The notes under the pieces: generated by a model | What the model saw: the letters and a program-made list of their open reading frames with translations, nothing else | Database searches by the model: none | Told to the model about the DNA's origin: nothing | Virus record (IMG/VR): IMGVR_UViG_3300004770_000057 | Coordinates: 1 to 32,370 of that record | DNA from: a virus | Length of the DNA: 32,370 bases | Strand: one strand, 5' to 3' | Position numbers and translations under genes: made by a program | Shown: piece after piece, positions 2,218-23,245 of the stretch | How the letters are laid out: every line of letters starts with the position of its first letter | Position numbering within the stretch: the stretch's first letter is position 1

Positions 2218-2442
2218 TTACCCCTTGAATGCATTGTTGAAAGCAAAAGCCCAATCCTGCCACTCGCTAAAGTAACGGCTGTCAGGAATTCCGGGAAAAC
2301 GCCCAATGCCAGACATTGCATCAACCCAGCTTTGCCATTGTGCCTCTGGAACGGTTCCTAGCTGGTTGGCCGCATAGGTTTCGGACATAAAGGCGCACCA
2401 TTGGTCCCAAGTCATGCCACGTGGATCGAAGATGGCCGTCAT
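2218..2442 (-). CDS. Small Trp-rich hypothetical protein
   Basis: The protein has 74 residues and five tryptophans (WDQW, W in [11 protein letters not shown] in EWQDW). Its ATG overlaps the stop of the nozzle-like gene as ATGA, and it ends 2 nt before the next start, so it is translationally coupled on both sides. I do not recognise the family. The lack of a signal peptide or TM segment and the position between two tail genes suggest a small tail or assembly protein, which is inference only. Confidence 0.75.
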
Positions 2443-4643
2443 GGATTGCCTGTCGAGCGAGAATCGCCGGTGGTCACCGAGAGCAGGACTTTGCCCAGCT
2501 CATAATTGCCACCGAACGTGTTGGACTCAAAGTGCAGGCGCATTTCGCGCCTCTGTTCCCGCATGTCAACCTTCAAGGTGCTTGGGACAAACGAGTATGG
2601 ATCAGACGGCTGATCCGTATCGTCAGCATAGCCTTTTCCGTTGATGGTCAAGGTCATGGTGCCGCTTTGAATAAAATCAGGCTCCATGCGTTCAAGGCGG
2701 GTCCACACATTTGCTCCGGGCTGAGTGTTGGATCCAACCAATCCTCCTAGCGGTCCAATGGATGAGGTTTCAAAATAGCTTTGGATTGCGTCCACAGTTG
2801 TCAGGTATACCTGATCGGTGCCGGACTCATGTTGCCAAATGGTGTACGTTGTGACCGTCATCACTTCTGAAGAAACACTCAAAGCCGTGCTAATGGTATA
2901 GGTGCCAAGCTGCCCTGAGGACAATGTCCCAACGGCGGTAATATATGTGTTGGCTGGAATATTTTTTCCATTGATAAGTTGGCCAACAGCCAAGGTTCCA
3001 TATTGAACGGCAGTCACCGTCATGGTCGTGCTGCTGATGCTGGCAGTAAAGGAAACGGTAGTCAATGGCGTGTTGTCTGCCCACAAAGGCTTTGGAAACA
3101 CTTCAGAGAACACGCCTGAACTTCTACGAGCACCTAATGCTTGACCAGCGTCATACCATGTTTTTTCACGTACGTTGTAGATGATTGCATCATTGCACTC
3201 AGTGGAGCTACCTCGCGGATAAAACCACCAAATTTCACCCCACCGGGGAACTTTAGTGACCCAAACTTTTTGACGTTGAACAAAGTTGATGTTGTCAAAA
3301 AAATAATTTTGGTTCAGCGTGTTTGGTATTTCTTGCACAGCGCCGTTGTAGAACATGAATCGATCTACTCCGCACCAGTAATAAAGGCCATCGTACTCAA
3401 TAACGCAAGATGAAGACATGATGGACGTTTGGCTGCTGATCAGGTCATAATTCCAATAGAACGTAATTCCGCTTACCACTGATGGTGCATAGGATACGCG
3501 GACCAGTGCATCAAGGGACCAAAATAAGCCGCTGGGCGACGATGAGCCTCCGCGCAACGGTAAACCCTTGACGATCTTGCTAGTAGCCACATTGCTGGCA
3601 TTTGCAATGGGTGAAGTCCAATCTTGGAAGTTGGCCGACCCGGTGTTCTGAATCAGTCCATTGTTTCCGTACACAAACAGGTATGGGTGAATCATTACAC
3701 AACCGCCGCTAACGGCAATGTTGTTGTCAAACGTGACCGTAATGTTTGACCCGGTCGTCATGGTCAGAGAAGAAACGACCGCCGTGGTAGCGCCTCCTCC
3801 CATCGATACAGGAGAGCCAGAGGTACCAACGGTCTGAGAAAGGTTGACGGTATAGGTGCCCACGCCGCCAATGCCCGAACCGTAGGCGGTTATGCTCGTT
3901 CCGACCGTTACCGTAACGCCAGATCCTCCAATGATGCTTTGGCCAATTGCAATGGCTCCAACGGTTACGGCGGTCACGGTCAATGTAGTGCCAGAAATGT
4001 ATCCGGTAAAGCTGGCGCTGGCCACTACATTCACAGACGCAACGGTTGTGCCAGAAGTGATGCCAGTACCACTCATGGTCTGGCCGGGATAGATCAATGA
4101 ATTGGCTCCGTTAATGATCGCCGAAAAACCATTGAGTTGCGCCACAGCGGTAAAGACGCCAACCTTGGACATTGACAATGATCCAGAAGAGCCCGGAAAT
4201 GCCCCATACAGAACAGGGGTGTTGGTGATCGAGTCAATTGCCGACAGGTTTTGTCCGGGATGTGCCACCAATGTGTTGGACCCGCTGCCGCTGGTGTTGT
4301 AGCCAATGTCAAACTGCCACAGGTTGTTGGTGCTGGCGGTAAAGTTACTCAAAGAATAACGATATGGACCAGCGCCTACTCCGTCGTCATTGTCAGTAAC
4401 CCATTGCTCCAATCCATTGGCGTTTCCTGAAACTACATAGTTCAGGCCATCAGATGATGTCATCTGCATGCCACGTGAAATTCCAGTGGCATTCAAAAAT
4501 ACTCCCTTGTAGCCGCCAATTTTTCTTGGCCGGTTGCGTTGAAAGCGCACCCATTTTCCATCCACACAGACGTTGGAGTCAAAAGCTGTACCGTCCCGCT
4601 GGATTCCACCGGGAAAGTTAAGGGCCAGTACTTTGCTGGTCAA
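2439..4643 (-). CDS. Tail nozzle / P22 gp10-like protein with inserted beta modules
   Basis: The protein has 734 residues. The start is TTG, overlapping the previous stop as TTGA, with a G-rich stretch about 8 nt upstream; no in-frame ATG lies near. Residues 1-160 and 310-525 carry short W/Y/F-rich strand repeats ([39 protein letters not shown]), and residues 600-734 resume the same style ([34 protein letters not shown]). That pattern matches the beta-propeller-like packaged-DNA stabilisation / nozzle proteins of P22 gp10 and SU10-type podoviruses. Two Thr/Val/Gly-rich modules interrupt it at about 210-283 and 529-600, and a shorter degenerate one lies at about 172-206. The neighbours (adaptor at 5898, fibre at 4640) fit a tail role. 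The family call rests on pattern and context. Confidence 0.75.
2844..3059 (-). repeat. Beta-sandwich-like module, copy in nozzle (second)
   Basis: Residues 529-600 of the nozzle-like protein. Landmarks in order are [37 protein letters not shown] and GTYTIS. It interrupts the host protein between PLWADN and IWQHE. Confidence 0.7.
3795..4016 (-). repeat. Beta-sandwich-like module, copy in nozzle (first)
   Basis: Residues 210-283 of the nozzle-like protein. Landmarks are [39 protein letters not shown] and [11 protein letters not shown], in the same order as the copy at 2844..3059. A shorter degenerate copy ([17 protein letters not shown]) precedes it near 4026..4130. Confidence 0.7.
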
Positions 4644-5896
4644 AATGCACCCCCGCCGATGCCTTGTAATACCACCAGCCCAGTTGGGCCTAAAGATCCA
4701 GCAGTTGCACCGTTCACCGCAAGGCCAATCGTGTTGGTTCCACCAGAGTAAAAACCAGTTGTTGTGTTGCCGGTAAAGTTAATGGAAGGATTTGCTGCTG
4801 ATCCTGCCGATGCAGTAAAAATACCGGAACTTGCCGTGTTGCTGGTGGTACTAAACACATTAGTTCCGTCGCAAATGCAAAATGCTGTAGCTCCGTTTGC
4901 CACCGCCACTGTGCTTGCGCTACCTCCAGCGGCAGTTTTAAAAGTCAGCGTATACGCGTTCGTCGACGTATTGTTCTGAAAAGAATAAAGTTGGACCGTT
5001 GATGGAACTGTAACAGTGGTGTTTTGAGTGATGGTCCCAGTGTATTCTTGAATGGTGTTAGCGCCTTCAGCGGACGTCAACGTAATATTGGCGGACGCTC
5101 CAGTCACACTTTTTACCAATTGGGTGTAGGGAAACGCATTTGATCTTCCATATGCATAGGTGTTGTAACCAGCGGTTCCAACTGTGCTAGAACCATTTGC
5201 AACCAGTACCAAAGATTCAGTCAACTGCAACTGCTGCTGACTGTTTCCGTCAATGACGTCTGTGCCTGACGGGTTGATCGTTAAAATTCCGGTTCCATTG
5301 TTTCGAACAATGATGAACCAATTGTTTCCTACCGTCGAAGAAGATGGCAAGGTAAAAGTTCCAACACCACCTGACCATACAAAAAATTTAGCACGATCAT
5401 TAACTTGAACACTGTATGGTGAAGATGTCAGAATATTGATGTTGTATGCCTGATTTAACGTCAATCCTTGCGCTACCAAACCTGATCCAGCCAAAGCCGA
5501 AGCATTGGCAGACGAAGTGCCAGCGCCAAAGACAAAAGAAGACCATGTACCATTGGTTGTGGTGTTATCAGTCAGAAAAATATATTCCGCTATGCCGGAT
5601 GCAATCGTGACGATCGTATTGCCGGAGTTATCGGATACAGTAAATGGATTGAATCCAATATTGCGAATCAGAACAGATTGGCCAGTAGATACCTGAAATG
5701 CTGGAGGAAGCTCAAGCAACCATCCGGTAGTTCCATTTGCTGTTGCCGTAACATCAATGATGCCGCTGACTGGCGTAGAGGTGTTACCGTTAATTGGCCA
5801 TTGCAGCGCGGTATTTGCGGTTAAGTTTAAAGCCTCATAACTTACGGTACTCGGGTAAATTGTTTGGCCGGTAAACGGGTTGGTATAGGTCGTCAT
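4640..5896 (-). CDS. Tail fibre / short-tail appendage protein
   Basis: The protein has 418 residues from the ATG at 5896. I chose this over the longer frame to 5950 because AGGA lies just upstream and the preceding stop is 1 nt away (TAACATG), while the longer start overlaps the adaptor gene. The N-terminus ([18 protein letters not shown], then LQWPINGN) and the stretch [19 protein letters not shown] are of the kind seen at the virion-binding end of podoviral fibres. The C-terminal part carries [18 protein letters not shown] and [10 protein letters not shown], a motif that recurs across phage fibres near the tip. No enzymatic motif is visible. It lies between the adaptor and nozzle-like genes and is probably mounted on the tail, unlike the three fibre genes on the far side of the lysis cassette. 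Confidence 0.8.
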
Positions 5897-5897
5897 G

Positions 5898-6536
5898 TTA
5901 AGAGTCCTGTGCAACAGTAGAGCGGTCACCCATGCGCAATGTATCTTCAACTTTCAGGGCATTCAAAGCCTCGGTAAAGAGTTGGGCCCAAACAGCAATC
6001 CGGCTGTCGTCCTTTAGAAACGATGCGGTTTGCTTCAATGTCCCGAACAGCATGGCATTGGGAGCGTTTTGTGTCAACCAATTGGTTTGGTTGTCGGATG
6101 CCAATGGTTGCAACCGGGTGTAGACCAACACTTCAAATGGGTATGCTTGATCTGGGGTGGGGGCAAAGTACCAATGCTCGTAATCGTAATCGGCGTAATA
6201 TAGAGGGATGCCCGTGTCGGTGGCGCTGGCGGCATACGTGTTCAAATATTCCAGCTTACGCAAGAACACAGGTTGCTTGACGCCATTGACCGCAATGGTC
6301 ATGGAGACCGTCTTGCGCCAGCGTGAAGGTTTGGCCACTACGGCGTTGCCTGCAGTTAAGGTTGAATCCACCACTTGCAACTGGCCCAGAGTCTTGATCT
6401 CTTGCGCAATCTCAAATTCCGCCAGCATGATTGCCGTTGGGATGAAATTCACCACAGCGGTATCGCTGCGCTCCAAGTACTGGAGCACCGTTGTAGTAAG
6501 ACTGTCGTAAGTAAGGACGGCGGCGGGTGTGGTCAT
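5898..6536 (-). CDS. SU10-type head-tail adaptor protein
   Basis: The protein has 212 residues. Its ATG overlaps the upstream stop as ATGA. It opens with LTYDSLTTTVLQYLERSD, followed by FIPTAIMLAEFEIAQEIKTL, a beta region (PSRWRKTVSMTI, PLYYADYDYEHWYFAPTP) and C-terminal helices (MLFGTLKQTASFLKDD, WAQLFTEALNALKVEDTLR). This helix-beta-helix layout is that of the phage adaptor family that joins portal to nozzle in SU10-like podoviruses (functionally like T7 gp11 and P22 gp4). The length is normal for the family. A fibre gene follows 1 nt downstream and then the nozzle-like gene, which supports the call. A second adaptor-like protein lies at 14907..15980. Confidence 0.8.
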   Translation of the reverse strand: MTTPAAVLTYDSLTTTVLQYLERSDTAVVNFIPTAIMLAEFEIAQEIKTLGQLQVVDSTLTAGNAVVAKPSRWRKTVSMTIAVNGVKQPVFLRKLEYLNTYAASATDTGIPLYYADYDYEHWYFAPTPDQAYPFEVLVYTRLQPLASDNQTNWLTQNAPNAMLFGTLKQTASFLKDDSRIAVWAQLFTEALNALKVEDTLRMGDRSTVAQDS

Positions 6537-21273: not shown

Positions 21274-22251
21274 TTAGGCTTGAGTTACGCCAAGAGCACC
21301 AGTGCGGGTTGCATTGGGGCCGACTGCGATACCGGGCACTGCAATAGACATAACCAAGCGTTTGGTTCCGTCAGAAGCAGATGTTGGAGTGAATGTACCG
21401 CGCACGTCACCAGTGCTGGTGGTAGCGGTTGCAGTCATATCGGCAGCAACAAAAGTACCTGCGTTTTGCAACAAGGTATTGTTCCAGCCCACTTTGATCA
21501 CATAGCCTGCATCAGTCACGCGAATAGGCAAACCAATCACGTCGGTCGTTCCAACAACAGCAGCAGTTGCAGATCCCGCAATAGTCGCGCTTGAAATTTG
21601 ATAGAACGCTTTTTTACCGCTAACAGCAGTACCTGCGGTTGCCACGGTAATCAATTCAGACATGGATTGACCGTAGTAGTCATAGCCAGAAACAGTGAAA
21701 GCGCGAGCGGTGGTGGAGCAATTGACCTGCACTGCACGAGGTACATCCAACTGAATCACTGTAGTACCGTCAGTGCGAGTTACCGATTTAGCAGAAGTAC
21801 CAGCAGTCAATGTCAATGCACCAGCAGCAGATGCAGTTTGAGAAGCAGCAATGTTGGCTGTTTGCAGAGTCTGAGGCACAGTGTCAAACACATAGATGCG
21901 ACCCAATGGGCCAACACCCAAAGACATTGGAGAAGGATCACCCAACAATGCATTGCCAGAAGCCGTCATGGTCGTGTTGGAAGACACGGTGGACGACTGG
22001 GACAAGGTGTAGGTGTTTTGACCGCTAGAGTTTTGACCTGTTGCAGCAGTAATGTAGCTATTTGCGGTAACGCTTGAGCCAGTAATGTACTGACCAACAA
22101 CCAAAGGATCACCCGTCTGGGTAGACACTACGGTCAGTGTGGTGGTGGCAATGGTGCCAGTGAATACGGATACGGTGGGCGCGTTGCCGGTACCCATGTA
22201 AGTCTGGCCGTTATTACCGCCCAGAAAAATGTCATCTGCGAATTGAGGCAT
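21274..22251 (-). CDS. Capsid-adjacent beta-rich structural protein
   Basis: The protein has 325 residues from the ATG at 22251, with AAGGAG upstream. It follows the capsid gene by 79 bp. It begins MPQFADDIFLGGNNG. Residues 27-99 are the same type of inserted module as in the nozzle-like protein (VFTGTIATTTLTVV, LVVGQYITGSSV, NSYITAATG, NTYTLSQ). The body (residues 100-325) is Ala/Thr/Val-rich beta protein with DVPRAVQVNC, FTVSGYDYYGQSMSELITV and GYVIKVGWNNTL. Position and composition suggest a capsid decoration or head-fibre protein. I do not recognise the family by name. Confidence 0.75.
   Translation of the reverse strand: MPQFADDIFLGGNNGQTYMGTGNAPTVSVFTGTIATTTLTVVSTQTGDPLVVGQYITGSSVTANSYITAATGQNSSGQNTYTLSQSSTVSSNTTMTASGNALLGDPSPMSLGVGPLGRIYVFDTVPQTLQTANIAASQTASAAGALTLTAGTSAKSVTRTDGTTVIQLDVPRAVQVNCSTTARAFTVSGYDYYGQSMSELITVATAGTAVSGKKAFYQISSATIAGSATAAVVGTTDVIGLPIRVTDAGYVIKVGWNNTLLQNAGTFVAADMTATATTSTGDVRGTFTPTSASDGTKRLVMSIAVPGIAVGPNATRTGALGVTQA
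21955..22173 (-). repeat. Beta-sandwich-like module, copy in the 325-aa protein
   Basis: Residues 27-99. It shares the order F-T-G-x-I-x-x-T-T-L-T-V, V-G-Q-x-I-x-G, Y-I-T-A, T-Y-T with the copies at 2844..3059 and 3795..4016, which lie some 18 kb away. Confidence 0.7.
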
Positions 22252-22330: not shown

Positions 22331-23245
22331 TTAAACGCCAGCAGTACCGTACATTGCACGGGGATCAGTGAAGCCAACTTGGTAACGCTCGGTGGCCTTA
22401 TAGCGCATCGAGTCAGTTTCAAAGTCGCCTTCCATGGTTTTCTCCAACTCGCGACGCATCAAGAGCTTCATGCCCTCGGGAGCATCAGTCTGGACCCACC
22501 ATGCATTGGCGCTGGTCAAGCGGCTCAACACCACTGCACCTTCGTCCAGCAAACCGATGGATTTTACCGGGTTGATGTCGTTGTTTGCAGTGCCGGTGCG
22601 CAGGACCGACTTCAACAGCACTTCAGCTTGGAAAATATTGCCGGGGGCAACCACCAGTTGGCGGGGCACCAGACGGATCTTCTTGCCGTTGTTATCCACA
22701 GCTTGTCGAATCTGGATCAACATCTGCTCAAGAGATGTCTGGGACAGGTTGGCCGAGGTGGACAGTTGGTTGCTGAAAGTACCGTTCACGATGGGGTGAG
22801 CGGTGCTGATCAGAGACACGCCATCGCCGCCGACATAGGACGAGTTGAACGCACGGTTCATCACGTTCGCAGCCAGAGTTTCTTTGGTCTCAATCAGCGA
22901 CTGAGCCAAGTGCTTTGCGTAGACCTGACCGATACGGATGTGGTCACCGTCCTCAACCAAAACTTTGGTCAGAGCAAATGCCAAACCAAAGACTTGGTAG
23001 ACATAGCGTTGGAGGAACAGTACACCACCTTGTTGGTACGAGACCGGAGTGCCGTCAGGCAACTGAGGTGCCGCGCCGAAACCGTACAGGACGGGCTCTT
23101 CGTGGTAGTTACGTGGAATACCATTTTCCTCGCGGAAAACACGAGACCACTCGTCTTTGCGTTGATCGTAAACGCCGTCGAAGCATTCGTTCAAAATCGG
23201 TTCGACGATTGAACGAAAGTCCGTACTTCTCATTGGTGCAGCCAT
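22331..23245 (-). CDS. Major capsid protein (HK97-fold type)
   Basis: The protein has 304 residues from the ATG at 23245, with AAAGGAG upstream, a strong site fitting high expression. It should form the icosahedral shell. Helical N-terminus (FRSIVEPILNECFDGVYDQ), then a YVYQVFGLAFALTKVLVEDG spine region, the LISTAHPIVNGTFSNQLS motif at about 145-162 (a His-Pro pattern shared with gpT/Mu-type and other HK97-fold capsid proteins), RLVPRQLVVAPG, and a C-terminal ERYQVGFTDPRAMYG. The position, two genes after the scaffold candidate, is canonical. I see no protease gene nearby and no sign of a cleaved N-terminal delta domain. Confidence 0.9.
   Translation of the reverse strand: MAAPMRSTDFRSIVEPILNECFDGVYDQRKDEWSRVFREENGIPRNYHEEPVLYGFGAAPQLPDGTPVSYQQGGVLFLQRYVYQVFGLAFALTKVLVEDGDHIRIGQVYAKHLAQSLIETKETLAANVMNRAFNSSYVGGDGVSLISTAHPIVNGTFSNQLSTSANLSQTSLEQMLIQIRQAVDNNGKKIRLVPRQLVVAPGNIFQAEVLLKSVLRTGTANNDINPVKSIGLLDEGAVVLSRLTSANAWWVQTDAPEGMKLLMRRELEKTMEGDFETDSMRYKATERYQVGFTDPRAMYGTAGV

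Follow-up and report, generated by a model that had tools for sequence, protein, structure and literature searches.

Small beta modules at three permissive loops of a propeller-type phage tail nozzle

The 734-aa protein encoded near the beginning of the freshwater phage DNA analysed here (the whole of IMG/VR record IMGVR_UViG_3300004770_000057, 32,370 nucleotides, hereafter the window) is a beta-propeller tail nozzle of the SU10 gp17/T7 gp12/P22 gp10/VP1 gp16 type, and two of its segments are homologous all-beta modules of ~72 aa (module A). The favoured reading, to which a probability of about 60% is given, is that cassettes are exchanged at permissive loops of this nozzle, that the modules are most likely exposed and variable contact surfaces, and that the module at one loop (site 2) extends the loop to which fibres dock. 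Under such an arrangement, the two segments would belong to a small promiscuous beta family (A) and occupy, without breaking the reading frame, two of the three loops of the propeller nozzle that tolerate inserts. Four or more sequence families of modules (A, B, C, and D among them) would be added, removed or replaced at the same loops by recombination between phages, which would leave the propeller and the platform untouched. Such recombination could act either within the flanks, which are conserved, or between dispersed copies of a module. Modules at site 1, the presumptive tip, may contact the host envelope, and those at site 2, the presumptive dock, may tune fibre docking in addition to contacting the envelope, a binding role being likewise presumptive.

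The nozzle gene and its two module A copies

A tail nozzle containing a propeller had been proposed in the initial annotation, and this identity was borne out by Foldseek matches, a profile match, and a structural model. The AlphaFold2 model, for which 42 natural relatives served as input, was all-beta with a mean pLDDT of 69; the modules mostly reached 74-93, and values below 50 occurred at backbone residues 10-50, 500-524, and 601-622, the latter two being the flanks of the site 2 module, whose modelled position is therefore of low confidence. Phage tail chains made up all of the first 16 Foldseek matches of the model (lowest E 3e-16), with the nozzles of Pa223, SU10, and VP1 at the top and those of P22 and T7 lower, and the matches also included tail or nozzle proteins of PhiM1, Carin1, and P-SCSP1u. 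Alignments of 390-417 residues with the tail chains of VP1, P22, and Pa223 gave VIA Z scores of ~18 (rmsd ~7 Å), scores that WD40 propellers equal over the propeller alone. In addition, the protein matched PHROG 3287 (virion structural protein, E 4e-22), and its profile matched the solved VP1 nozzle gp16 over 90 residues (E 1e-9). The gene is encoded beside an adaptor gene and a fibre-like gene (Table 1).

The homology of the two segments is evident from the local alignment of residues 210-283 with residues 529-600, which scored 120 compared with 42 ± 7 (maximum 79) for 5000 shuffles. These residues map to positions 3795-4016 and 2844-3059, so the span 2844-4016 originally assigned to the pair was correct. 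The shared, ordered landmarks described for the two copies also largely held: FT-x-x-I-S-x-T-T-[LM]-TVTAV, ITA, and GTYT are present in both, but copy 1 reads IGQSI rather than VGQ-x-I.

Table 1. Coordinates of the nozzle gene, its module sites, and related features in the window.
Feature	Position	Strand	Basis or remark
Second site 2 flank, Trp603 codon	2835..2837	minus	W in 117/130 nozzles; placed at SU10 LVWRKD (Trp857) in the backbone hhalign alignment
Tail nozzle gene	2439..4643	minus	ORF, 734 aa; TTG start overlapping the stop codon of the upstream gene
Module A at site 2	2844..3068	minus	Residues 526-600; HMM E 2e-21; pLDDT 74-93
First site 2 flank, Trp521 codon	3081..3083	minus	W in 109/130 nozzles; on SU10 W839 in two separate hhalign alignments
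Module C, C-terminal strands, site 1	3723..3791	minus	Residues 285-307; aligned to relatives in which nothing is nested
Module A at site 1, nested inside module C	3792..4019	minus	Residues 209-284; HMM E 1e-23; pLDDT 81-93
Module C, N-terminal half, site 1	4020..4172	minus	Residues 158-208; HMM E 4e-13
Site 0, third permissive loop, empty in the window phage	4329..4391	minus	Residues ~85-105; filled by B-type modules in 8/130 nozzles
Fibre-like tail gene upstream of the nozzle gene	4640..5905	minus	PHROG 12796 tail fiber protein, E 2e-10
SU10-type adaptor gene	5898..6536	minus	Pfam SU10_adaptor, E 1e-24; supports tail-gene synteny
Third, weaker module A copy	21964..22188	minus	51% identity, E 5e-8; module HMM E 2e-10

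No model of module A was found in Pfam or NCBIfam, and none of the modules gave a Pfam Ig match at E 0.1 or better, whereas the same search of SU10 gp17 returned Big_2 at 1.6e-22. Sequence searches for a solved homologue of module A yielded none, the best matches being short antibody segments with E above 0.4. A stand-alone model of the site 1 module was too poor for a fold assignment (pLDDT 52), and its weak matches serve as no more than leads, to the Bridgette decoration protein, the E1 FCCH domain, and the phi92 endosialidase. Moreover, no match among isolated phages was returned when module A alone was used as a tblastn query, probably because the low-complexity filter of BLAST hides the module, and this blank does not imply its absence there.

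States of the three loops among relatives

A first scan yielded 80 loci and led to an alignment of 57 distinct in-frame proteins, and a second scan raised the set to 130 unique full-length nozzles; since the scans return the nearest relatives, the counts of states given below are not population frequencies. All insertions of at least 12 aa in the 130 nozzles fell in three loops (sites 0, 1, and 2) of a backbone of 503 alignment columns, and 17 distinct combinations of site states were found once HMM label variants had been merged. Site 0 was filled by B-type modules in 8 of the 130 nozzles (e.g., MW202545).

Site 1 proved to be composite, as copy 1 of module A sits within module C, a distantly similar second beta module (residues ~160-208 and 285-307). 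Module C was present in all 57 nozzles of the smaller set, where one of its loops held module A (20), module D (4), or nothing (33); among the 130, C alone was found in 79, D in 25, A in 21, and B in one, and four were empty. Module A is missing at site 1 from most relatives, and module C, present in 126 of the 130 nozzles, is entirely absent from Caulobacter phage GB2A, whose 510-aa nozzle has neither A nor C, and from three others. At site 2, the 57 nozzles comprised 14 empty, 20 A, 22 B, and one C state between the constant flanks PIW.. and ..LWQHE, and the 130 nozzles comprised 47 B, 32 A, five B-prime, four C, and 42 empty states, modules other than A accounting for 56.

The two segments had been described as insertions, the second lying between PLWADN and IWQHE as if between adjacent propeller strands. 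Uninterrupted relatives do exist for both segments, some lacking A and some lacking A and C, and they keep an intact backbone; neither a broken fold in their absence nor a propeller core formed by the segments was found. The insertion view requires amendment at site 1, however, where A lies inside C, and at site 2 the empty, A, B, and C states do alternate at one junction, but its flanks are probably not two ordinary propeller strands. That the segments are instead integral parts of the propeller, looking like insertions owing to divergent loops, is very improbable: the near-universal presence of module C in close relatives would fit such an origin, but relatives with empty sites and otherwise continuous backbones contradict it, and the same modules recur in unrelated proteins. 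Separately, relatives with matches of ~3.3 kb and frame breaks were considered as candidates for interrupted nozzle genes and rejected, for their nozzles were intact and the match had run into module A of the upstream gene.

Repeated turnover was apparent on trees built without the module columns, on which the change counts pool gains and losses: at least 7 (site 1) and 9 (site 2) state changes were needed on the tree of 57 proteins, and at least 5 (site 0), 18 (site 1), and 17 (site 2) on that of 130. The loci L022 and L028 represent a recent swap at site 2. In windows of 120 columns their nozzle regions were mostly 93-100% identical in nucleotides, dropping to 62-84% across the site 2 module and returning to 97% behind it; the 3' end of their upstream gene was also only 84-89% identical. 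The modules had been called mobile, which agrees with this repeated swapping and loss but suggests more than was seen, namely exchange by recombination and no mobile-element machinery. No inverted repeats were found at the site 2 module, and at site 1 only a 12-nt imperfect pair lying inside the site was found. An insertion sequence, intron, or intein was rejected as an explanation, as terminal inverted repeats and an added ORF were lacking and both modules were in frame. For close pairs with the same module, the median dN/dS was 0.057-0.077 in the modules and 0.042-0.052 in the backbone, and these low values indicate that the modules are under constraint through purifying selection.

Positions of the loops relative to the SU10 and T7 nozzles

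SU10 gp17 (Kuravirus) and T7 gp12 are, like the window protein, beta-propeller nozzles with extra beta domains: in SU10, four Ig-like domains enter between blades 2 and 3, while the loop with Trp839, Trp847, and Trp857 on the edge of blade 1 docks the short fibre (PMC9509320), and in T7 the nozzle-tip domain leaves from a loop of blade 3 and a fibre dock lies on the outer surface between propeller and platform (PMC6702177). The gene order of adaptor, fibre, and nozzle is shared with the window, and a fibre dock near the junction of propeller and platform (PMC9509320, PMC6702177) may be. There are also differences: the inserted domains of SU10 match the Pfam Big_2 Ig-like family, whereas the window modules have no detected match, and the window-type modules, unlike the inserts of SU10 and T7, show nesting as well as exchange between different sequence families. 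For SU10, the consulted passages of PMC9509320 describe no dock-loop insert of ~75-90 aa.

Site 1 lies behind the N-terminal propeller segments and ahead of a 10-residue segment, and it would correspond to the junction of blades 2 and 3. Its order along the chain suggests that it may be the entry point of the nozzle-tip domains of SU10 and T7, and for the site 1 module the distal tip is therefore a likelier location than the tail's outer wall. The earlier placement of both modules on the outer wall, where they could make new surface contacts, hence needs revision for site 1, but the exposure of the modules at the virion surface, which the topology of the chain would suggest, could be retained.

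With regard to site 2, hhalign of the window nozzle against SU10 gp17 placed KPLWAD on GPIWSD (W839), and a module-free profile placed PVWADY...TLWQHE on PIWSDF...ELVWRKD, with W603 meeting W857, so that the alignment gap falls at site 2. The alignment weakly suggests that site 2 may be the loop that holds the short fibres of the tail, immediately ahead of the C-terminal platform. Its score was marginal (E 0.014, compared with 0.05 for the reversed control), with partners for two of the three SU10 tryptophans and no general partner for the middle one, so the dock-loop match depends mainly on the shared fold and order. The most likely effect of the site 2 module is to extend the loop to which the short tail fibres dock.

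A dock at site 2 raises the question of the fibre-like gene immediately upstream. This gene carries an inserted module A in L014, L019, L029, L037, and others, and is uninterrupted in the window. Each cassette type at site 2 might be an adaptor that fits a matching base of the short fibre encoded there, so that a change of cassette would allow a different short fibre to be accepted, an explanation considered rather unlikely. In its favour, the nozzle region that aligns with the dock loop of SU10 contains site 2, and site 2 type covaried with upstream-gene similarity after removal of backbone similarity (partial r 0.11, p 0.002, exploratory), with no such co-variation beyond the backbone for site 1 or for the nozzle platform. 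Furthermore, between L024 (4841-5920) and L028, most of the upstream gene (54-79% identity) and the site 2 module have been replaced jointly, the rest being 88-100% identical. The effect is small, however, in Mantel tests that are liberal with related sequences, and it peaked in the upstream gene's C-terminal third (0.125) rather than in the N-terminal third (0.048), which would be expected to dock and which is similar across site 2 types. The association could reflect co-transfer of neighbouring genes, which adjacency alone would yield.

The nozzle is usually viewed as a conserved gate or channel for DNA. The presence of different cassettes, or none, at the same loops of related phages suggests that it varies at parts that possibly contact the host or hold the fibres, and if the loops are indeed the fibre dock and the distal tip, the nozzle would be a second axis of host interaction besides the fibres. 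It is possible, if doubtful, that site 2 acts as an evolvable socket in which the cassettes of the dock loop set the fibre or host surface engaged, whereby nozzles would join the fibres in host-range evolution. It is already established that virions carry promiscuous beta domains and that the structural proteins of phages undergo continuing domain shuffling. Smug et al. (2023, PMC10684548), who cite Fraser et al. (2006), reported domain mosaicism in phage neck-passage and receptor-binding proteins, and ongoing domain exchange in otherwise near-identical proteins, neck passage structure proteins included, is common to their study and the present one. Their example is the exchange of a C-terminal domain, in contrast to the internal cassettes at three loops of one protein in the window family, and the word "nozzle" does not occur in PMC10684548. 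A limited search of open-access text found no report of cassette exchange at multiple sites of a nozzle, which appears to be new.

Module A in other proteins

Module A was identified in at least 106 ORFs on at least 84 loci by a DNA motif scan and HMMs. With the modules masked, the carriers fell into about 30 groups without detectable similarity among the matches listed, some singleton groups of which may be fragments of larger families; as most of the sample was chosen by the A motif, these numbers show the spread of the module and not its frequency. The carriers included an adaptor-like family, Hc3/P22-gp10-type nozzles, a tail sheath, a neck terminator, a hub protein, and fibres. The third copy in the window lies near the N-terminus of a 325-aa protein (21274-22251) that had no match in PHROG, Pfam, or NCBIfam; the adjoining gene (22331-23245) matches major head proteins, and the 325-aa product is possibly a head decoration protein.

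The occurrence of modules in sheath, terminator, adaptor, and head-side genes argues against a nozzle-specific function. The modules could even be beta decorations that are close to neutral, which recombination has spread among coding DNA of low complexity rich in Ser, Thr, and Gly and which loops tolerate, kept only because they fold, as the range of some 30 unrelated protein groups among the matches listed, the repeated loss and gain, and the common empty sites would allow. Such neutrality nevertheless seems unlikely given that purifying selection on the modules approaches in strength that on the propeller and that the insertions are confined to three loops of the backbone, observations of which a need to fold could explain part. 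Exposed contact surfaces exchanged as cassettes remain the preferred interpretation of the nozzle modules.

Promiscuous Ig-like domains were reportedly described on phage structural proteins by Fraser et al. in 2006. Like the modules of this study, those domains are small beta modules on unrelated virion proteins, present in some and absent from other close relatives, and contact with the cell surface is presumed for them. The window modules differ in that module A has no Pfam Ig match and in their internal position at three fixed nozzle loops, and in the alternation of several families at a single site.

In the head closure Hc3/P22 gp10-type nozzles (PHROG 578), tandem A modules, in some cases with D or B, occupy a single internal position beyond the first quarter of the chain. 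No sequence relation between the window nozzle and this family was detected by hhalign, whose E of 0.47 did not improve on that of the reversed control; going by relative position alone, their module site would be equivalent to one in the window nozzle. In another phage group (L183-L262), module A, frequently as tandem copies, is present at one conserved site each in an SU10-adaptor-like protein and in the Hc3/P22 gp10-type nozzle next to it (e.g., L249 4450-5718 and L258 3083-5875, the module string of the latter being read as ADDDDA).

PHROG 38233 ("tail fiber protein") and PHROG 21413 appear to match many unrelated virion proteins via module A alone, and the label "tail fiber protein" can consequently mislead. 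A single short module thus explains the confusing annotations under which nozzles, adaptors, and fibres all match these two PHROGs. Lastly, at positions 3-157 of the window, a gene with a tandem repeat encoding PEPTSS-like units is cut off by the end of the contig, and the repeat may account for the stop of the assembly at this point.
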